A DNA stretch of 42,599 bases, from IMG/VR virus record IMGVR_UViG_3300025133_000237, positions 1-42,599 of that record; one strand, given 5' to 3'. This DNA comes from a virus. Below are positions 9,779 through 39,785 of the stretch, piece after piece. The translations under genes and the position numbers were made by a program. A model generated the notes under the pieces. The model was not told the origin of the DNA, did no database searches, and was given only the letters and a program-made list of their open reading frames with translations. Each line of letters opens with the position of its first letter. The first letter of the stretch is position 1.

Positions 9779-10054
9779 TTATTTACTTGTAGTATTGTCT
9801 TTTTCTACTGTATAGTTAGTATAATTTCTTAAGTATCTAACTTGATCTAAAAGATTTAAAAGAAAATCGTTTACAAACATAAGAAACTCTCTCATTGTTT
9901 GATTTCTAAAAATATGTCTAGAAAGCATTTTAGAAATTAAACCAGAAGTTTTTGCAGAATAATCATACCTCGTGTTCTTAAGATTGTCTCTTCTATGCTT
10001 AGCTACTTTATATAACCTCTTACGCTTGTATACTAATAAATCTTTAAATAACAT
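9779..10054 (-). CDS. Small basic protein in baseplate wedge operon
   Basis: A 91-residue Lys/Arg/Tyr-rich protein, probably all helical (LLVYKRKRLYKVAKHRRDNL; FLMFVNDFLLNLLDQVRYL). Its ATG overlaps the stop codon of the gp6-like gene by one base (TAATG), indicating translational coupling. The family is not recognised. Its position between gp6-like and gp7-like genes suggests a small wedge component or assembly factor. The high positive charge could also mean nucleic-acid contact. Confidence 0.6.
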   Translation of the reverse strand: MLFKDLLVYKRKRLYKVAKHRRDNLKNTRYDYSAKTSGLISKMLSRHIFRNQTMREFLMFVNDFLLNLLDQVRYLRNYTNYTVEKDNTTSK

Positions 10055-11883
10055 TATTTTAGGGCTTGTCTATTTCCAGCTTGTACTCTAGTGTAAATTG
10101 TTCTAGGTACTGGCTCACTATCAAAATTAACACTAAGTGCAGCTTCCGCATTTATACGAGCGTCATCTATAATTACATCACCATCTCTATCTTGCCATCC
10201 GCCTCTAAAAACAGCGATCTCTTCTTTTTCCATAATTATATCACCCCATTCATCTAAACCAGCGACTTTATATGGAATTGCTGTACTTGCATCTACAGGA
10301 ATTGTTTTAACTTCTTCTATTTGTTTAAAGAAGATATACTTTTGTTTACCATTACCAATATCTTCTAATAAAACAGGCTCTTGTGGTACAACACTTACAG
10401 TTTTAGAATCATAATAACCTAATCTTCTAGCTGTCTCTTCTGTTTCAGATATAAATCTCACATTCACTGCATCAATACCTTCAATCTTTTCAAGGATATA
10501 CACAATATCAGATTTAGGTAGCTTATCTCTTCTTGTTACATTTAACATGTAATTACTTACAGCCTCTCTAACATCTGTAAATATTTCTTGTCTTGTATGT
10601 CCTTCAAAATATCTAATATTGATATCCATACTATATTTTCTAACTTTAGGCTTCACAAAAACAACTTCAGTTGTAACCATTTGTTGGCCACTGTCTTGAA
10701 TTACTTGTGACATTTTATCATATTCATTTTGGTCAAAGAACATTTCGTTTTCTGGAATAGAAAAATAATCTTGAGAAGCTAATAGTTTTCTTTTAACATC
10801 AGGGACTGCAAAAATATAGATAACATTATCATCATCTAAATATTGGTCTTCTGTTGTATTGTAAGCGTCCACATAAGAGAATAAACCATATCTTGATAAG
10901 AAATACTCATAGTTATCCGGCGTCGCCAGAACAAACGATTTGGACGTTAGAGGCGCCATTAATTTTGTAAACTCAGTTGATTCAGAATCAGCTCCCATTT
11001 TAGGAGAAGATGTAATATTAATTTCTAAGTATTCATTTAAATCCCATTCGTCTCCGTTTGAATCAGTACCTTCTGAATTCCATTGGAATACTAAGTCTTG
11101 TCCATCTGCTAAGTTACCTAAAGCACCAGAATGTTTTACATATTCTACTGCAATATCAGCACCTGCTTGAGGTATTGCTCCAAAATTACCAGTTCCAAAA
11201 TAAATATCAAGTCCACCTGAAATACCAGTCTTAAGTATAAATCCTTTTTCATCACTTAATAAGTCATACATAGAATCGTGCTTGCTCCACTTCTCACCAT
11301 TAACAGAAACACTCACCATTGAATGATCGGTTAACTTATTAACTTTTACATTATATGATTGCATTGATTCTCCGGTTGAAGTAAATGTTTGTTCTTCAAA
11401 TTCACCTTGTATAATTGCAGTTTTAATTTTATACTTATTAGACTTTTCTAATCTATATCTTTCCTTTGAAGTCAATAGAGTATACTTCATTCCGTTTTGT
11501 TCACACTGTAATTCGGCTCTTGCATCAATATTTAAACCAGTACCTGCAAGCTTACCTAAATCAGCACCAACCTTCCATCTAAATTCTATTTCGCCAGTTG
11601 CTGCAAAACCTCTAGTAGCATCATGGCCAGCTAATCTCGATAAACCATAAATAGATTCTGGTTGTTGCGCAGTGTATATGTTTTGTTCAACAGTAGAGTC
11701 TTCTATGTAGAACATGATTAATTCACCGAGCTCAGCCATTACATTTACTATTTGAGCAAATGGGGATGCTTCGGTAAAAAGCGTATTAGCACGTTTATAT
11801 ACCCTTGAGATATATGTACGAGAATCTGCCTTGATTTGGTTCGCGGTAGCTCTTAACGTGCTTAAAAATTTTAATTCAGCCAT
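10054..11883 (-). CDS. Baseplate wedge protein, gp6/baseplate J-like
   Basis: A 609-residue protein of the gp6/baseplate J group, which forms the ring joining the wedges around the tail hub. The N-terminal helical part (LRATANQIKADSRTYISRVY, then a region around FAQIVNVMAELGELIMFYIE) fits gp6. Residues about 228-258 carry the baseplate J pattern (YFGTGNFGAIPQAGADIAVE, then a Gly-Asn turn). Residues about 420-470 (RQEIFTDVREAVSNYML, then DIVYILEKIEGIDAV) match the C-terminal domain typical of the family. T4 gp6 is about 660 residues. It follows the gp25-like gene by 7 bases, the conserved order in T4-like phages. Confidence 0.85.
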   Translation of the reverse strand: MAELKFLSTLRATANQIKADSRTYISRVYKRANTLFTEASPFAQIVNVMAELGELIMFYIEDSTVEQNIYTAQQPESIYGLSRLAGHDATRGFAATGEIEFRWKVGADLGKLAGTGLNIDARAELQCEQNGMKYTLLTSKERYRLEKSNKYKIKTAIIQGEFEEQTFTSTGESMQSYNVKVNKLTDHSMVSVSVNGEKWSKHDSMYDLLSDEKGFILKTGISGGLDIYFGTGNFGAIPQAGADIAVEYVKHSGALGNLADGQDLVFQWNSEGTDSNGDEWDLNEYLEINITSSPKMGADSESTEFTKLMAPLTSKSFVLATPDNYEYFLSRYGLFSYVDAYNTTEDQYLDDDNVIYIFAVPDVKRKLLASQDYFSIPENEMFFDQNEYDKMSQVIQDSGQQMVTTEVVFVKPKVRKYSMDINIRYFEGHTRQEIFTDVREAVSNYMLNVTRRDKLPKSDIVYILEKIEGIDAVNVRFISETEETARRLGYYDSKTVSVVPQEPVLLEDIGNGKQKYIFFKQIEEVKTIPVDASTAIPYKVAGLDEWGDIIMEKEEIAVFRGGWQDRDGDVIIDDARINAEAALSVNFDSEPVPRTIYTRVQAGNRQALK

Positions 11884-11890
11884 TATCTAT

Positions 11891-12247
11891 TTATCTTAAA
11901 TTTACTTGGATTATGTACTCGTTATTAATAGTAATATCAATGTAAGCAACATCTCGTACTTCACCTCTATAAAATTCAACTGCAACTTGAGTAGAATACT
12001 TACGTGCCAGTGGTACATAATTCATTAATTGGCTTTCGATTTCGTTCTTAATTTGATATTCACTTTGGTTTAATCCATAGATCATATCATCTAAGTTACA
12101 GCCAAAGCCAGGCTCTCCTAGTACATCTCTTTTTCTGGTAAATAAAACAGTTTCAATTTGAGCCATTAATTGCTCTATCTCTCCGTTGTTTACGACCACA
12201 TTAGTTTGATAATTAGGGTCACCTATATGTTTAATATAAAAATCCAT
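11891..12247 (-). CDS. Baseplate wedge protein gp25-like (gpW/gp25 family)
   Basis: A 118-residue protein close in size to T4 gp25 (132). This conserved wedge core protein sits beside gp6 and helps start sheath assembly. The family core is visible at 38-58 (RKRDVLGEPGFGCNLDDMIY) and includes Glu45-Pro46, which corresponds to the EP(R) core of gp25; the Arg is replaced by Gly. The remaining helix (EIESQLMNYVPLARKY) and final strands (VAYIDITINNEYIIQVNLR) also fit. It sits directly upstream of the gp6-like gene, the usual order in contractile-tail phages and related injection systems. Confidence 0.88.
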   Translation of the reverse strand: MDFYIKHIGDPNYQTNVVVNNGEIEQLMAQIETVLFTRKRDVLGEPGFGCNLDDMIYGLNQSEYQIKNEIESQLMNYVPLARKYSTQVAVEFYRGEVRDVAYIDITINNEYIIQVNLR

Positions 12248-12266
12248 TTATATATGTATTCGACTT

Positions 12267-13109
12267 TTAAGAGTGGAACATCCAGTCCACTCCTTCGTCT
12301 CCTTTTATCTCTTCAATAATAGACTCTAACTCGGTGTCTCCCATGTCTTTTATTGCGTCGTAGTCAAATTCTACATTACCAGGTAATGCAAACTTGAAGA
12401 TCCCTAATTTAGCACCTAGGGATTGCTTAATCTTAGCTGAACAGTATCTAAAGAATACTTCATCTTCGTATAACGCACAATCTTCAATTGTCTCGTATAC
12501 ATTTAATACAACATCACTTTTAGGAGTATCTCCTAATATCTTTAAATCACCATTTAATCTAGTATAACTAAATGAAATAGGATTTTCCATAATTTGTCTA
12601 GATAGATCTGCCATAGAAGCATTCAATACATAATACTGTAATTCTTCTGCAGCTTCTGCAGGTCCTGATCCGTCATACATTCCTCTAAACAACATTTTTT
12701 CTAATGCAAAATCACCGCCATGTTGAAATCTTACATCTAAGCCAGCGCCAGTCGAATTATATCCAGATCCAGTGTCATATACACCAAATACAGAAAACAC
12801 TGCACCAGACCCATCTGCCTCAGCTCCAGGTAGGTTTAACGATCTATTAGATTTAAAATATGCAGAGTCGAATACATCTTTAGGTATTACATAATAATTC
12901 TCTCTAACAGAATCTTCATAGTTTTTATAGAACCATTTTTTAGCTCTTTTAACTATATTAATTATTTCTCTTTGTGGCAAATTAACAGGAACCATACAAG
13001 CTCCAGTCATGTCATCTCCCAGTTCTGATAAAAATGCATTAAGACATCCAGTACCGAAATCTCTTTCAGTTCCTAGATTAGTATCATTACCTTGTCTAAT
13101 TTCACTCAT
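12267..13109 (-). CDS. Virion structural protein, possibly neck or baseplate-associated
   Basis: A 280-residue soluble protein. After a polar N-terminus it has a helix with aromatic residues (REIINIVKRAKKWFYKNYED) followed by YYVIPKDVFDSAYFK. This layout recalls head-tail connector or neck proteins of large myoviruses, but the resemblance is too weak for a named call. The middle is Gly-rich (PGAEADGSGAVFSVFGVYDT). The acidic C-terminus (ELESIIEEIKGDEGVDWMF) looks helical. It lies between the amidoligase and gp25 genes, separated from them by 1 and 19 bases, so it is part of the wedge operon. Confidence 0.55.
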   Translation of the reverse strand: MSEIRQGNDTNLGTERDFGTGCLNAFLSELGDDMTGACMVPVNLPQREIINIVKRAKKWFYKNYEDSVRENYYVIPKDVFDSAYFKSNRSLNLPGAEADGSGAVFSVFGVYDTGSGYNSTGAGLDVRFQHGGDFALEKMLFRGMYDGSGPAEAAEELQYYVLNASMADLSRQIMENPISFSYTRLNGDLKILGDTPKSDVVLNVYETIEDCALYEDEVFFRYCSAKIKQSLGAKLGIFKFALPGNVEFDYDAIKDMGDTELESIIEEIKGDEGVDWMFHS

Positions 13110-13110
13110 T

Positions 13111-14424
13111 TTATGATTTTATTTTTGTGCTTACTATTACTTCAGTTTCTTCAGAAAATCTAGCATTGTTTCCAACTCCTCCCTCTCTAAAAATACCGCC
13201 ATTCATTTTGCCTTTAAAGATACCGTCTCTTCCAAAGACATAACAGTTTTCTAATGTACAACTTCCATGAACATAAGAAGATTCTACTTTAGAATCATTA
13301 ACTTCACATCCCTGGTATAGTTGAGAGCGTACAATTTGAGCTCCCTCTATTTTACCACCGTAAATTGCACTATTTTCAATATTTCCAGATATTTCGCAAT
13401 TGATAAACTCAAATCCATCTAACAAGTAAGCTGTTCTAAAAACACCGTCCTTTACTTGTACTTGACTATAATCAGAATCGTAGTTAATTGTACCCGATTC
13501 CATTGAGCCATGTGCAAGTAAATCTAGAACTTTAGTTTTAAATCTATCCCATTGGACTTTAATTACTTGTTCGTCAGATTGCAAATCTACTAATATATTT
13601 ATCTCCTTCCAATATTTATTTATCGCCCTATGATCTTTTAGCATTTCCATCAGAGGTTTATTCTTTTCTAAAATTCGTTTTAGCTCAATTTTATTAGCAG
13701 GAGAATATACTGGATTGTAACAAGAGTTCCATATTGACATAATAAAACCATTAGCTAAATGTAAAATATCATCTAATCGTTTCTCATAATCTTTACCACC
13801 AATATATCTAAACTCTAAATAATTCTTTTGTGCCTTTTCAAAGTTAATACCATAATATTTAGTATTAGCAAATGTAAAGTTATCTGAATTAATTAAGTTT
13901 TCATTATAGTAAAAGGCTTCATTCTTAGGCATAACCCATTTAATAGATTTTGCATAAGTTGAATTCTCTCTATTTGGAAAATACTTGTAAATTCGATTCT
14001 CGTCAAATTCTAAAATAAATTTAAGAACTGACATTTTAGTAATCATATTCGGATCTTCTAAATAATCCGGATTAAAAGACATATTAAGGTGAATTGAAGC
14101 ACGGTCATTTGTATAACCATTGGTATCAATCCATCTTAACATTTTTTGAATTACAACTCTAGCACTATAGTATGGCATTGGGCCAGTAACTAGCTCAATT
14201 AATCCCTTACCACCTGACATATCAGGTTCCATTTTAAAAACATCCGCCGTTGGTTGGAAGTCAGAATGTGCTTTATCTTCTAGTTTTATCTTTCTATTTA
14301 ATAGATCAGATAAAGAAGTTTGTGTTTCTTTAAGTTCTAAGTTTGAATAGAATTCAAATTCAACACCAATTTGGCTTGCGTTTAAAACAGAGTGCCTATC
14401 TGAAGATCTTGTTAATTTCTGCAT
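13111..14424 (-). CDS. Amidoligase-like enzyme fused to a C-terminal beta-helix-like repeat domain
   Basis: A 437-residue protein. The N-terminal 300 residues fit the glutamine-synthetase-fold amidoligase family (PF12224-type), ATP-dependent ligases thought to form peptide or isopeptide bonds. The visible motifs are GVEFEF (20-25), with metal-binding acidic residues; IELVTGPM (76-83); ASIHLNMSF (109-117), corresponding to the family HxHv strand; and YGINF then YLEFRYIGG (about 191-210), corresponding to the family N and EfR strands. From about 325 to 410 the sequence becomes a string of short repeats (FINCEISGNIENSAIYGGKI; VNDSKVESSYVHGSCTLENC) like pentapeptide or hexapeptide beta-helices. 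The gene follows the S1 gene after 54 bases holding an inverted repeat and a promoter-like box. The substrate is unknown. Confidence 0.72.
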   Translation of the reverse strand: MQKLTRSSDRHSVLNASQIGVEFEFYSNLELKETQTSLSDLLNRKIKLEDKAHSDFQPTADVFKMEPDMSGGKGLIELVTGPMPYYSARVVIQKMLRWIDTNGYTNDRASIHLNMSFNPDYLEDPNMITKMSVLKFILEFDENRIYKYFPNRENSTYAKSIKWVMPKNEAFYYNENLINSDNFTFANTKYYGINFEKAQKNYLEFRYIGGKDYEKRLDDILHLANGFIMSIWNSCYNPVYSPANKIELKRILEKNKPLMEMLKDHRAINKYWKEINILVDLQSDEQVIKVQWDRFKTKVLDLLAHGSMESGTINYDSDYSQVQVKDGVFRTAYLLDGFEFINCEISGNIENSAIYGGKIEGAQIVRSQLYQGCEVNDSKVESSYVHGSCTLENCYVFGRDGIFKGKMNGGIFREGGVGNNARFSEETEVIVSTKIKS

Positions 14425-14478: not shown

Positions 14479-15771
14479 TTAAGGAAGCTTTAAAAAGACT
14501 TTCATTGTAGCTTCATCGATCCTAGTAATTTGTACACTTATAGAATCTCCAGCATTATAGTCATTAAGATCTAAATCTCTTAATTCACTAATATGTAAAA
14601 GTCCAGTTACGCCTTCTTCGATATTTACAAAAATACCGTAGTCCTTTTTAGTCTTTACTTTAGCTTCAACCACCGATGGTATTTGATACCTAGATGAAAT
14701 ATCTTGCCATGGATTTACTGTTGATGACTCTTTTTGAGTTAACGTAATTTTAGTATTACTAATAATATCTTTTACAAAGAATTTAATTGGATCGCCTGGT
14801 TTAATATCTCTAGCTTTAAATTTAGCTTGAGTATCTTCATCTAATTCATTATTATGAATCATTCCAGTTAAACATTTATCAAATTCTACAAATACTCCGT
14901 ATTTTGCAGTTCCAGTTACATTACCTTCTTTTTCAACACCTCTATTATCTTTTAGATCTTGGATGGCAGATGGAATTAATGCTTGTAAATATTTTCTATG
15001 TGATACTACTATTGTTCCTCTATCTGATGAGAAGCTTACAGGAACAACATATATTTCTTCTCCAATAATAGAACTAAAGTCAGATAATTTATTAATACCT
15101 GCAAGTGAACCTGGCATAAAGCAATCAACTCCTTGTACTCTTACAATATAGCCACCATTTTCAATCATGTTTTTAACTTGACCAATCCAAGCAGTATTAC
15201 CTTCTTCGATAGCTCCTCTAAGATCCATAAATGTTTTGTGCTTGACACCTCCAGTAATAGTTCCAGTTAATGTACCTTTAGTTTCTGTAATTAATACAGC
15301 AGTTTCATCTCCTGGTCTAAGTTGTCTAACTTCTTCAGATTCTTTATTAGCTTTTACATAAACTAATTCTCTATAACTAATATCTATAGTAATAAAGTTT
15401 TGATCGACTGCATAAATAACGCCTTCGTGAATTTCACCCTCAAATAATTCAGGTTTAATATCTACGCTATGATCGCATATCTTATCATAAAGCTCTTGAG
15501 CATAAGGCTCTCTAGAATATACCTTATCACCATCTCTCGTCTTAATATGTGGGTTAGGTTTTCTATATCTAGTAGGACATGTGCTTTCATAAGCATCCCA
15601 TAGGAACTCACCAGATTCATCGTAAAACTCTGAAAAATCATTTCCAGTTTTTACGGCATCATTCGCCTCGTTAAATTGTTGTGTTGTTTCTTGAACTGCC
15701 TCTTTGACTAGTTCTACGGTAGGTGCCTCTTTGGCTACAGTGTTTATTCTGCGTCTTTTTTGATCTGACAT
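14479..15771 (-). CDS. Ribosomal protein S1-like protein with four S1 domains
   Basis: A 430-residue protein. After about 100 polar residues come four OB-fold S1 RNA-binding repeats at roughly 109-170, 190-258, 280-346 and 364-430. The last two carry classic S1 patterns: GNVTGTAKYGVFVEF followed by LTGMIHNNEL, and VKTKKDYGIFVNI followed by GVTGLLHISEL. Bacterial bS1 usually has six repeats, so this is a shortened relative. In bacteria S1 binds single-stranded mRNA leaders and delivers them to the 30S subunit; phage-encoded S1 homologues are known in some environmental phages. It starts after an A-rich leader with a late-type box upstream. It may favour phage mRNAs that lack Shine-Dalgarno sites, or act as a general RNA-binding protein. 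Confidence 0.88.
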   Translation of the reverse strand: MSDQKRRRINTVAKEAPTVELVKEAVQETTQQFNEANDAVKTGNDFSEFYDESGEFLWDAYESTCPTRYRKPNPHIKTRDGDKVYSREPYAQELYDKICDHSVDIKPELFEGEIHEGVIYAVDQNFITIDISYRELVYVKANKESEEVRQLRPGDETAVLITETKGTLTGTITGGVKHKTFMDLRGAIEEGNTAWIGQVKNMIENGGYIVRVQGVDCFMPGSLAGINKLSDFSSIIGEEIYVVPVSFSSDRGTIVVSHRKYLQALIPSAIQDLKDNRGVEKEGNVTGTAKYGVFVEFDKCLTGMIHNNELDEDTQAKFKARDIKPGDPIKFFVKDIISNTKITLTQKESSTVNPWQDISSRYQIPSVVEAKVKTKKDYGIFVNIEEGVTGLLHISELRDLDLNDYNAGDSISVQITRIDEATMKVFLKLP

Positions 15772-15796: not shown

Positions 15797-15807
15797 TATT
15801 ATATATC
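15797..15807 (-). promoter_or_regulatory. Late-promoter-like box GATATATAATA
   Basis: The minus strand reads GATATATAATA, identical to the boxes at 716, 34656 and 38320. It lies 25 bases before the S1 ATG and overlaps the stop codon of the preceding gene at its first base. This placement would allow separate late expression of the S1 gene. Confidence 0.5.
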
Positions 15808-16175
15808 TACTTAAGTATGCGTTTTATCCATGCATACTTTTTTCTAGTTTTTAGGTAATCTAAGTTATCATCATTATCAAAGGCTTCTCTTTCGAAAGAA
15901 ATATTATAGTAAGATTTCTTGCCATAAAAAAATAGTTTAATAAACCACTCCAATACATATAAAATATAGAACGGCAAAACTAAAACCTCTTCTTGTTGTT
16001 TAATATGAATAGACTCGTGGTTAATAATTCTTTTAGCTTTATTTTTAAAATAAGCAGTGGAATTATATCTTTCTCTTAAAACCACAAATGGCCAAAGTGT
16101 AATACCACCAATTCTCATAAACCAGCTAATGTTATTTAAAAACTTATCGCTATACTTAACAATCGGTGTTTTCAT
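15807..16175 (-). CDS. Zincin-like protein with HESIH motif and a hydrophobic segment
   Basis: A 122-residue protein. It holds the zinc-metallopeptidase signature HESIH at 53-57 (INHESIHIKQQEE). A hydrophobic stretch at about 65-84 (VLPFYILYVLEWFIKLFFYG) is likely a membrane segment or a buried helix. FEREAF at 94-99 supplies an acidic candidate third zinc ligand. It resembles small HExxH proteins of Bacteroidota whose function is unknown to me. It follows another zincin gene by only 5 bases and precedes the S1 gene. A lysis, envelope-modification or moron-type role is possible; catalytic activity is inferred from the motif only. Confidence 0.65.
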   Translation of the reverse strand: MKTPIVKYSDKFLNNISWFMRIGGITLWPFVVLRERYNSTAYFKNKAKRIINHESIHIKQQEEVLVLPFYILYVLEWFIKLFFYGKKSYYNISFEREAFDNDDNLDYLKTRKKYAWIKRILK

Positions 16176-16180
16176 ATAGT

Positions 16181-16189
16181 TTATATATC
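16181..16189 (-). promoter_or_regulatory. Late-promoter-like box GATATATAA
   Basis: The minus strand reads GATATATAA, only 5 bases before the ATG of the HESIH protein. If it acts as a -10 element the transcript would be nearly leaderless, so this copy could instead be part of the AT-rich translation start. Confidence 0.3.
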
Positions 16190-16645
16190 TTCTTCAAATG
16201 AGGGTACAAAAAACTGATCCGTTAATTCTTCAGCGTGTATTTCCCATGGCCTTGCTCCCCATGGCACATTCCATGAACTCGCTTCACCCTTCCAAAAGAC
16301 TACACCAAAACCTTCTATTAAGTATCGTCTATCAAATTGTAAAACATGTACTAATTCATGAAACATTGTTCTTTGCAAAATATCAACAGGATAAATGCTA
16401 TTTAATTGAATCAAATATACATCTTCTTTAATTTGAGTAGTTAAGCCTATGATATTAAAACGAAGAGGTGCTATTTTAGTTATTATATATGGAGACCTTC
16501 TAGGAAGTGGCTTTAAAATAGAATCAGTTACAAATTTAAGTATGCTCTTATTATTCAATACTTCCTTGACTGTTGCGGTTTTTCTAAAAGTAGTAATACG
16601 TTCCTTTGCCGCTGCGATTTTATTCTCTTCAGCAAAGTTAATCAT
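16181..16645 (-). CDS. Zincin-like metallopeptidase, HELVH motif
   Basis: A 154-residue soluble protein with a classic gluzincin-type site: HELVH at 96-100 (FHELVHVLQFDRRYL) and downstream acidic residues at 135 and 139 (PWEIHAEELTDQF) as candidate third zinc ligands. The N-terminal half has a helical start and a beta strand pair (YIITKIAPLRFNIIGLT) usual before the active-site helix in minimal zincins. It is the first minus-strand gene after the divergent region 16646-16823 and is followed after 5 bases by a second zincin. The substrate is unknown. It could trim virion or host proteins, or partner the amidoligase downstream. Confidence 0.7.
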   Translation of the reverse strand: MINFAEENKIAAAKERITTFRKTATVKEVLNNKSILKFVTDSILKPLPRRSPYIITKIAPLRFNIIGLTTQIKEDVYLIQLNSIYPVDILQRTMFHELVHVLQFDRRYLIEGFGVVFWKGEASSWNVPWGARPWEIHAEELTDQFFVPSFEEDI

Positions 16646-23520: not shown

Positions 23521-25326
23521 TTATCCTGCTGCGTAGTCAGAATTACGTAATGCTCTATCAGCCGTCATTCTACTTCTATCTTTATTTCCGTATTGCGATA
23601 CATCTAATACATCGTCAAGTGATTTACCTTCAACCTCAGGTTGTAGATACATTCTACCTCTACCGGCATTAAACATCGATTCAATTTCTGATTTATCTCT
23701 AGGTCTACCAGGTTTAAGAGTTACGCTCATCTTTAACTTAGATGGGAAACCTTCAAAACCAATAGGTCCTTCAAATTCAAATTTAGTATTTTCTAAACAT
23801 AGGTTACCACATACTAACATTGGGTTCATAGGATTACCTACTGTTAAATGCCATTGTCCTGTTGGATCACCAGTTAAGAATGCTTTAATGATATCTCCAC
23901 CAGAAGGCGAACCCATCATTTTCATTAAGTTACCACCAATCAAGTTATCCATAATCTTAGAATCTCCAAGAGCATTAAGTCCCTTACCATTCATTAATCC
24001 CTTTGCAGCTTTACCTATATCACTAAAACCTGCACCTAATGAAGATTTTAATTGAGTAGCAACTGAACTTAAGTAACCAGAGTAGTCTCCAGATTTAAGT
24101 TTATCAAAGTCACCAAATGGTTTACCTGTAGAACCACTACCAGTATGTCTAGTAGCACCACCCCAGAAAGGAGCATTGTTATATGAGATAGCTAAAAGGT
24201 TTGAGAGTGCGTCCATAAATGCCACCTTAGGCGACGTACTTTCGAATCCTCTTAAGTCATAATAGAAGTTAAGAGTAAATTCATTATCAAACTTTAATCC
24301 TTTTTCATCTCTAGCAATTACAGATTTAATTGCATTATATGGTCCGTATACAAAGTTAGGATACGTATCAGTTAATGGATCAAAGCCATGTCCTTTAGTA
24401 TTAATCAGATCTGATTGAGCAGCAGTTTTCCCATTTATTCCAGCTTCAACTGCTTTAGCTACAGGACTACCATCAATTAAAGAACCAAGACTACCTCTTC
24501 TTTTTTCATTACCTGCTGTTGCTGCATCTTGAACTTTAGACTCAATTTCTTGCCAACCAAAACCAACACCAAATGAAAGTATCTCTTTTAAGTCATTACC
24601 TAATTTAGGTGATAACCATGTAATACATCTAGCTAAATCCGGTTCTGATTTATCAAATTCTTTTCCACCTTCATCAATACCTTTAGTATTCATTATATCA
24701 TCACCAATTGGAAATGCGAACCTTCTTAGAGTAACTAAATATTCATTTGAAATTTGACCGTAATGTTCTGTTTGTATAAAATCTCTATATGAATATGCAA
24801 AACCTAAACCACCGTTAGTATTAGAAAATTCTACAATACGCTTAGCAGTAGGGTTTAATATATTATCTTTTTGTGAATCTATTACTGTTTTATTATATTG
24901 GTTAACATCAGGATCACTGTATGTTGTACCACCAGAATAGTTTCTATAGTTTAATAATGTCCATGCATTAGCTTTTGATCTAACAGTACTAACTCCTTCT
25001 ATAGTCTTATCAGGATCTGTAATTTTAAAAGCTCTTGATGCTAACCTATCATTACCAAAATTACTTTGAACTTCACGAGATTCATCTGGTAATAGCTCTA
25101 TAGTACTATTCCCCTGAGATGTTGGCTCAACAGCTTCTTGTTGATCTGCTCCTAATGCTGCATTATCAGAATTTGTAACGGCAGTCGCATTATTAGACGC
25201 AGGTGTAGCAATACTACCATCCGCGTTAAGGGGCACATCGCTGACCTTTGCATCCCCAGTTATATTATCCTTGTAAGCGAACTTAGTAGGGGGTCCGGGC
25301 AGTATGCTTTCTAATGATAAGTCCAT
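23521..25326 (-). CDS. Large central-tail structural protein (tube-fold C-terminus suspected)
   Basis: A 601-residue protein. The first 110 residues are polar and Ala/Asn/Asp-rich, likely disordered. From about 170 an ordered part begins (FAYSYRDFIQTEHYGQISNE, then YLVTLRRFAFPIGDDIM). The C-terminal 120 residues (GQWHLTVGNPMNPMLVCGNL; FEFEGPIGFEGFPSKLKMSV; TLKPGRPRDKSEIESMFN) look like a beta-barrel of tail-tube or tube-cap type. It is the first gene of the hub block, with a promoter-like box upstream, and lies 1 base from the gp53-like gene. A gp48/gp54-type cap function is possible but unproven. Confidence 0.55.
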   Translation of the reverse strand: MDLSLESILPGPPTKFAYKDNITGDAKVSDVPLNADGSIATPASNNATAVTNSDNAALGADQQEAVEPTSQGNSTIELLPDESREVQSNFGNDRLASRAFKITDPDKTIEGVSTVRSKANAWTLLNYRNYSGGTTYSDPDVNQYNKTVIDSQKDNILNPTAKRIVEFSNTNGGLGFAYSYRDFIQTEHYGQISNEYLVTLRRFAFPIGDDIMNTKGIDEGGKEFDKSEPDLARCITWLSPKLGNDLKEILSFGVGFGWQEIESKVQDAATAGNEKRRGSLGSLIDGSPVAKAVEAGINGKTAAQSDLINTKGHGFDPLTDTYPNFVYGPYNAIKSVIARDEKGLKFDNEFTLNFYYDLRGFESTSPKVAFMDALSNLLAISYNNAPFWGGATRHTGSGSTGKPFGDFDKLKSGDYSGYLSSVATQLKSSLGAGFSDIGKAAKGLMNGKGLNALGDSKIMDNLIGGNLMKMMGSPSGGDIIKAFLTGDPTGQWHLTVGNPMNPMLVCGNLCLENTKFEFEGPIGFEGFPSKLKMSVTLKPGRPRDKSEIESMFNAGRGRMYLQPEVEGKSLDDVLDVSQYGNKDRSRMTADRALRNSDYAAG

Positions 25327-27914: not shown

Positions 27915-28502
27915 TTATTTTTCTGTGTTAAAAAAGAATGTTTGAAATAATCTACCGTCATTAATATTCTTGCCAAAATAATCTAAAGAGGCGTGGAATA
28001 GGTCTCCATTATACATTACTAATCTATTGTATACATTACCTACCATATCCACCATTTCCCATTTAGTCATATCTCTTGAATCTTCATATATTAAATCTAA
28101 AGTTGCTTGATCTACGCTACCATCTTCTAATAATGGAGTTGATACTAATCCGGTTGCTTTATGTTTAAAAATACCAGTACCACCTGAGAGAGGTGCGTCT
28201 GGTGTTAAATACAATACAGCTGCCCAATTATTGTTTCCATCTGAATGAATCCAAGTACGATCAGCCTGTGTTGTATATTGAAATGCACCACAATAAGAAT
28301 CTGTTTCATTTGGAAAGTATGACTCTCCATGAATACCTTTTAAGTGTGATGCAATATATTCTTTTGTAGAATCGGATAGAAACGGTTTTGTTCTTTGCCC
28401 TGGATAATTTCCAGTTACTCCGAATTCTTGTTTTAGTGCAAAATCTCTAACCTCATCAGGGTTATTATAGAAATTGTCGATAATTTGTAAAGTATATGCC
28501 AT
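27915..28502 (-). CDS. 2OG-Fe(II) oxygenase-like protein
   Basis: A 195-residue protein with the layout of Fe(II)/2-oxoglutarate-dependent oxygenases of the DUF6445-type group found in marine phages. Residues His86 and Asp88 in TWIHSDGNNNWAAVLYL and distal His170 in YNGDLFHASLDYF would bind iron. Arg184 in GRLFQTFFF would bind 2-oxoglutarate. The beta strands between them (LSGGTGIFKHKA) fit a double-stranded beta-helix. Substrates for phage members are unknown; protein, nucleic acid or glycan hydroxylation are options. It starts one base inside the end of the helicase gene. Confidence 0.75.
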   Translation of the reverse strand: MAYTLQIIDNFYNNPDEVRDFALKQEFGVTGNYPGQRTKPFLSDSTKEYIASHLKGIHGESYFPNETDSYCGAFQYTTQADRTWIHSDGNNNWAAVLYLTPDAPLSGGTGIFKHKATGLVSTPLLEDGSVDQATLDLIYEDSRDMTKWEMVDMVGNVYNRLVMYNGDLFHASLDYFGKNINDGRLFQTFFFNTEK

Positions 28503-38861: not shown

Positions 38862-39785
38862 TTATACTAATTGTGTTGCGAATTGTTTCACATATTTTTG
38901 AACTGCTCGTTCTTTAGCTTTAGCCTCGAGTTCGATATCGAGATCAAGACCAAAGTCATTGATTGGTTCATATATGTAATCGGCGTGAGCCCTTGCCATT
39001 ACTGTCGCATCTTCATGAAGTCGTTTACATGAAGAGTAGTGGCATAGTTGTTTAATTCCTTTTGGCCAAGTAGTAGAAGCCAACTTAAGAGCTTCCTCTT
39101 GAGTCAATTCTCCTGGATGGCACCAGTGGTGATGGTAGTCAAATGTAATAGGAATACCAATCTTATTGTGAATACCTACATACAGATCTTCTGTTGCATA
39201 TTGTTTTTGCTTGTCGTCATTCTCAACAACTAGACGTCTACGAACTGAAGCGTCAAGTAGATGGAAGTTATCTACGAATCTTTGCATTGCAACATCTTTA
39301 CCACCTTGTGTAGTATTGACATGAATGTTGATCGCAGCATAAGGAGTACGTGGTAGACCCATTAGGTCAAATATTTCACCATGCTTGTTGAGGTCAGCAA
39401 TAGATTTGGTGACTACGTTTTCATTTTTAGATGCGAGGACATCGAATGGTCCAGGGTGGAATGTAATCCTCTGACCGTACTCCTTAGCTAGATCGCCACA
39501 TTCTTTTAGAATAGTTTTGATAGTTTTGAAATCCTTAAGATCTTCGAACTTATACTCGGACATCCAAGGCATAATATCAGAAGACATACGATATAGTTTA
39601 AGACCATTAGCTTCATTCCATTTAATAATGGTACGTAGATCCCTTACATTTTGTACAATAAGTTCTGAAGCGTAGTCCACACCTTTAGCCATAAAGGTAC
39701 GTTTAATCATAGAACGATTTGTAGTGATTGAAGGCTTTTGCTCTCGAAGAGCCATGTTGATACAACAATATCCGTAATTTGTCAT
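38862..39785 (-). CDS. uvsE: UV damage endonuclease UvsE (UVDE)
   Basis: A 307-residue TIM-barrel endonuclease that nicks DNA 5' of UV photoproducts, starting alternative excision repair. The family opening GYCCIN is present at 5-10, and LKLYRMSSDIMPW at 62-74. Metal-binding candidates are His110 in RITFHPGPFDVL, His155 in INIHVNT, Glu188 in LVVENDDK, Asp216 and His219 in TFDYHHHWCHP, and His249 in LCHYSS, all in the expected order. The length matches bacterial UVDE (about 300 residues). Its presence suggests exposure to sunlight. It is transcribed with small accessory genes. Confidence 0.92.
   Translation of the reverse strand: MTNYGYCCINMALREQKPSITTNRSMIKRTFMAKGVDYASELIVQNVRDLRTIIKWNEANGLKLYRMSSDIMPWMSEYKFEDLKDFKTIKTILKECGDLAKEYGQRITFHPGPFDVLASKNENVVTKSIADLNKHGEIFDLMGLPRTPYAAINIHVNTTQGGKDVAMQRFVDNFHLLDASVRRRLVVENDDKQKQYATEDLYVGIHNKIGIPITFDYHHHWCHPGELTQEEALKLASTTWPKGIKQLCHYSSCKRLHEDATVMARAHADYIYEPINDFGLDLDIELEAKAKERAVQKYVKQFATQLV

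Follow-up and report, generated by a model that had tools for sequence, protein, structure and literature searches.

What does an amidoligase do when it is fused to a repeat domain and encoded among the virion genes of a marine phage? The question is raised by a gene of 437 codons (positions 13111 to 14424, minus strand, ATG start) in a 42,599-nucleotide viral sequence (IMG/VR record IMGVR_UViG_3300025133_000237, positions 1 to 42,599), referred to here as the window. We describe the two halves of the predicted protein, its relatives and its gene neighborhood, and weigh what its target may be.

Residues 8 to 240 (13705..14403, minus strand) very likely constitute an amidoligase enzyme of the glutamine synthetase (GS) fold, as judged from the modeled structure, a Pfam match and invariant residues. 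The domain contains the motifs GVEFEF (aa 20 to 25), EPDMSGG..IELVTGP, IELVTGPM (aa 76 to 83), IHLNMSF (aa 111 to 117), and YLEFRY (aa 202 to 207). A first-pass annotation had read four ordered amidoligase motifs in the N-terminal half; all four are present in that order, and Pfam Amidoligase_2 (PF12224) matched residues 18 to 122 above its curated cut-off (23.9 bits versus 22). Within the family, 15 of 45 members matched PF12224 at E <= 0.1, with weaker or absent matches in distant ones. The AlphaFold2 model of the whole protein (input alignment of 45 relatives) had a mean pLDDT of 91.4. It was compared with solved structures, and all 50 among the matches listed were GS or GS-family proteins (Z 10.4 to 11.8), gamma-glutamylmethylamide synthetase being one of them. 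The best match to a GS catalytic domain (Z 11.8; 183 residues; 3.5 Å) covered model residues 8 to ~240, so that the GS fold proposed at first pass is found in the prediction. Among predicted viral structures, the matches below a full-length one (A0A6J5PQ40) were mostly proteins annotated as amidoligases. Profile comparison with Escherichia coli GlnA gave nothing meaningful, and the link to GS therefore rests on structure.

Across 94 distinct homologues, E22, E24, D68, S70, E77, H112, N114, E142, and R152 were invariant, as were K159, K162, K189, E204, and R206; the catalytic glutamates, whose conservation the first-pass annotation had proposed to check, are thus retained. Eight of these residues (E22, E24, D68, E77, H112, N114, E204, and R206) we take to correspond to GS metal and ATP ligands, an assignment made by motif and not by residue-level superposition. 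By this analogy, the fusion protein is probably an active, ATP-driven, amide-bond-forming enzyme, although catalysis itself is something that we infer.

A helical connector (aa 241 to 306; 13507..13704, minus strand; DSSP on the AlphaFold2 model) leads into the C-terminal domain (aa 307 to 437; 13114..13506, minus strand), which had been noticed at first pass as a beta-helix-like repeat string. That description holds up: residues 300 to 437 modeled alone gave a confident beta-solenoid (pLDDT 92.6), and Pentapeptide_4 was matched at E <= 0.1 by 23 of 45 family members (best, 5.4e-6), the window protein itself not being among them. The best structural match was the NP275/276 pentapeptide-repeat fusion (2j8k; Z 10.0), with antigen 43b (Z 9.7) and pectate lyase (Z 9.3) close behind; McbG-like and MfpA chains were weak matches of the family profile. 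On the strength of the model, the domain can fairly be called a beta-solenoid of pentapeptide-repeat character, with right-handed beta-helix rivals scoring within 1 Z. The pentapeptide-repeat proteins NP275/276, MfpA, AlbG, and HetL are similarly built solenoids (Z 8 to 10), whereas the window solenoid is fused to an enzyme and its repeat is degenerate. In its conserved end motif, GGIFREG, residues G410, R413, and G415 show the same invariance as the active-site residues across the 94 sequences; the solenoid is therefore not mere filler. A tblastn search limited to the C-terminal domain recovered nothing beyond the huge phages that carry the fusion (described below), giving no case of the domain joined to a different partner.

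The dN/dS values of ~0.06 for the N-terminal (catalytic) domain and ~0.09 for the C-terminal domain show that the open reading frame is a genuine gene subject to purifying selection. The fusion proposed at first pass as worth seeking in other phages was found full length in 80 viral contigs (62 to 82% identity) and in six huge-phage records of 462 to 735 kb (31 to 39% identity). The gene sits throughout an abundant marine phage clade, and the architecture is intact in the uncultured huge phages at identities of 30 to 39%; on this sequence comparison, the fusion is old. A search with the family alignment gave a single strong copy per record in all 10 long records, with an additional weak match in LR756502 (19 bits; E 1e-4). 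Searching the huge-phage records directly with PF12224 gave no match, because the Pfam model is too distant; the family alignment finds the strong copy in each. The genomes of 634, 636, 642, and 735 kb carry one fusion copy apiece. We match these, by size, to the largest four complete genomes of the survey of Al-Shayeb et al. 2020, which are 634, 636, 642, and 735 kb long (PMC7162821). A genome scan for a cellular origin of the fusion returned two contigs filed as bacterial metagenome-assembled genomes (L199, filed as Deltaproteobacteria, and L200); both are phage-like in gene content and were rejected as cellular.

Upstream of the gene lies an S1-domain protein (14479..15771, minus strand; 430 aa; Pfam S1, E 1e-24). 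Downstream, after a 1-bp gap, is a neck or head-tail-adaptor-like protein (12267..13109, minus strand; 280 aa; phrog_211, E 1e-9), followed by a gp25-like baseplate wedge protein (11891..12247, minus strand; phrog_43, E 4e-4; GPW_gp25 below its cut-off) and a gp6-like baseplate wedge protein (10054..11883, minus strand; phrog_219, E 1e-30; Baseplate_J). The gene had been placed at first pass between S1 and baseplate genes; the S1 side of that placement stands, but the immediate downstream neighbor is the neck gene, with gp25 and gp6 after it. The order S1, amidoligase, neck (phrog_211), gp25, gp6 is constant in the marine clade. The gap between amidoligase and neck genes was 1 to 7 bp in 160 of 165 loci, and that between amidoligase and S1 genes was ~48 to 59 bp in nearly all, both counts including overlapping stretches of the same contigs. 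The marine-clade order is kept, with inserted genes, in LR756500 and in contig L199, where a GIY-YIG homing endonuclease-like ORF (L199, 919-1560) is inserted between S1 and the amidoligase.

Among the long records, nine of 10 have a homologue of the neck gene or of a tail-module gene (23521-25326) within 3 kb of the amidoligase; several of these records are close kin, so the nine represent ~4 to 5 independent arrangements. In the 735-kb genome, both markers lie hundreds of kilobases from the amidoligase, and the contig L200 copy has a clamp-loader-like gene nearby. The 25 kb surrounding the amidoligase in LR745206, LR756502, LR756501, and LR756504 showed no S1 homologue; outside the marine clade, the S1 neighbor is retained in just the LR756500 group and contig L199. 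Neck and tail genes thus stay close in most deep lineages and S1 in few, which favors the virion side, with the reservation that neighborhood speaks at best to co-regulation rather than to target.

Several other features of these regions were recorded. The T4-type late promoter TATAAATA had 1 match in the window against 9.5 expected, so that a promoter of this type ahead of the amidoligase gene gains no support; this core is depleted across positions 1 to 42599, as if avoided or reserved for special use. Two adjacent small genes at 15807-16645 carry metallopeptidase-like HExxH-type motifs (NHESIHIKQQ and FHELVHVLQ), and among relatives these genes upstream of S1 are present, single, or absent. 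One relative (L013) has a large unidentified ORF of 700 aa upstream of S1, beside the conserved block. In the largest phages, a conserved DHH-type phosphoesterase-like protein (FHKDLDGV...DFAH) is encoded downstream of the amidoligase (L084, 13811-15802; L083, 13826-16102; L196, 9877-11502). A common N-terminal tag (such as MKYIKEYEEFLLE / MKHLKEYKNWLFE) was found on many small ORFs: within a 25-kb stretch of L081 (LR756500.1, 309039-334319) it is carried by 11 of the 41 ORFs, and it recurs on small ORFs in L083, L084, L085, L165, and L199. To our eye the tag is similar to the sequence that targets internal head proteins to the T4 capsid, and it could for that reason mark a set of packaged proteins. 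Elsewhere, the window encodes a DUF6445 protein (27915-28502) and a UV-damage endonuclease UvdE (38862-39785; E 2.6e-59).

The GS-like amidoligases (Amidoligase_2, PF12224) were reportedly described by Iyer et al. in 2009. The window protein shares with this family the GS fold and the order of acidic, His, and Arg motifs, and differs in adding a C-terminal beta-solenoid and in lying in a virion operon; it is matched only distantly. It has the fold of the GS catalytic domain (4bax and 8fbp; Z 11 to 12 over ~185 residues; ~10% identity), whereas GS proper also has an N-terminal domain, which the window protein is without, the alignment starting at model residue 7 to 9 and GS residue ~103. A0A6J5PQ40, from an uncultured Caudovirales phage and annotated as uncharacterized, matches over its full length with the same architecture (TM 0.84; 24% identity). 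More distant is gp125 of Salicola phage SCTP-2 (ASV44140.1), which profile comparison matched over residues 70 to 234 (96.6% probability; E 5e-10); it differs in its length of 606 aa and its other N-terminal extension, and no solenoid was recognized behind the catalytic part. SCTP-2 is a cultured jumbo phage of 440 kb, and this distant amidoligase relative, a hypothetical protein at L204 8834-10654, is a possible experimental entry point. A search for relatives of gp125 among viral contigs found none.

The amidoligases of LUZ24-like and OM43 phages belong to the same Pfam family and are listed with a glutamine amidotransferase in the early region, UFV-P2 also having an ATP-grasp enzyme (PMC3890496, PMC10580990). 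The class II glutamine amidotransferase profile GATase_6 (PF13522) was not detected in 8 large records, while the control was positive in 14 of 14 cellular genomes, and this sets the fusion apart from the LUZ24-like and OM43-phage amidoligases. A search with the COOH-NH2 ligase model (PF14395) gave zero matches, as did its control.

The reading that we favor, tentatively and at a little less than even confidence, is that of a late enzyme whose target is a neck or tail protein of the virion, on which it would form an amide or isopeptide linkage, with the solenoid serving for docking. The single-chain amidoligase would bind Mg-ATP through the eight ligand residues named above, as in GS, and phosphorylate a carboxylate (a Glu or Asp side chain or a C terminus); the activated carboxylate would then pass to an amine, resulting in an amide or isopeptide bond. 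Because the neighborhood is virion-linked and the solenoid is fused to the enzyme, the likeliest acceptor would be a neck or tail protein during assembly, on which the beta-solenoid may dock the amidoligase. The enzyme might attach one amino acid or a short peptide to this acceptor or cross-link two chains. Against this reading stand the distant markers of the 735-kb genome, the clamp-loader-like neighbor in contig L200, and a search for known late promoters that gave none. Substrate, docking role, and late expression are all points that we infer. A stronger version is possible but doubtful, namely, that the protein is a dedicated giant-phage protein ligase whose solenoid serves as a docking arm and which, during assembly, attaches amino acids to neck and tail proteins or cross-links them covalently. 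We know of no phage for which enzymatic isopeptide maturation of a neck or contractile tail has been described.

An unlikely alternative, and the one that survives best, is that the enzyme modifies, late in infection, the host envelope or the peptides of peptidoglycan to block superinfection or to set the time of lysis, an idea already put forward for other phage amidoligases. Late expression would be compatible with it too, and the amidoligase/GATase pair of phiEco32 has been suggested to alter the cell wall against superinfection (Iyer 2009, as cited in PMC10580990). The 8 large records, however, lack a detected GATase_6, the amidoligase sequence shows no apparent signal peptide or membrane segment, and the neighbors are virion rather than envelope genes.

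Less probable still is a small-molecule or small-peptide product made by gamma-glutamyl-type chemistry, without protein modification. Small molecules are the substrates of many GS-fold ligases, and gamma-glutamylmethylamide synthetase is among the structural matches, but the fused solenoid suggests a macromolecular partner and partner biosynthetic genes were not recognized nearby. We give even less credence to modification of the translation apparatus, whether of a ribosomal protein of the host or of the S1-domain protein encoded next door by the phage; S1 lies directly upstream throughout the marine clade and in contig L199, and with inserts in LR756500, but no homologue of it was seen in the surrounding 25 kb in the four most divergent huge phages listed above. 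It is very improbable that the protein is a structural or scaffold component whose amidoligase fold is no longer catalytic: the gene is located among structural genes and solenoids are common in structural proteins, but the presumed catalytic acids, His, and Arg are all invariant in the 94 distinct sequences, which disfavors a dead structural domain.

The amidoligase family, the GS fold, and the repeat type are already known. The combination of amidoligase and repeat was unfamiliar at first pass, and in the literature examined we likewise found the fusion, its conservation among the largest phages, and its GATase-free virion context undescribed. Amidoligases are not mentioned in the available portion of the text of Al-Shayeb et al. 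(PMC7162821), and in a jumbo-phage overview the term was found only in a reference. Nine moraphages are reported (PMC12619734) to have a "glutamine synthetase," which may or may not be the fusion protein.

The largest known phages thus retain an uncharacterized and clearly enzyme-like function. If a virion protein is modified, then the assembly of giant-phage tails would include post-translational amide chemistry; if a host component is modified, then the amidoligase fusion would be a new enzyme for altering the host late in infection. In both cases, phage amidoligases divide into a virion-linked branch and a GATase-linked one, and it is the latter that underlies current guesses about their function.
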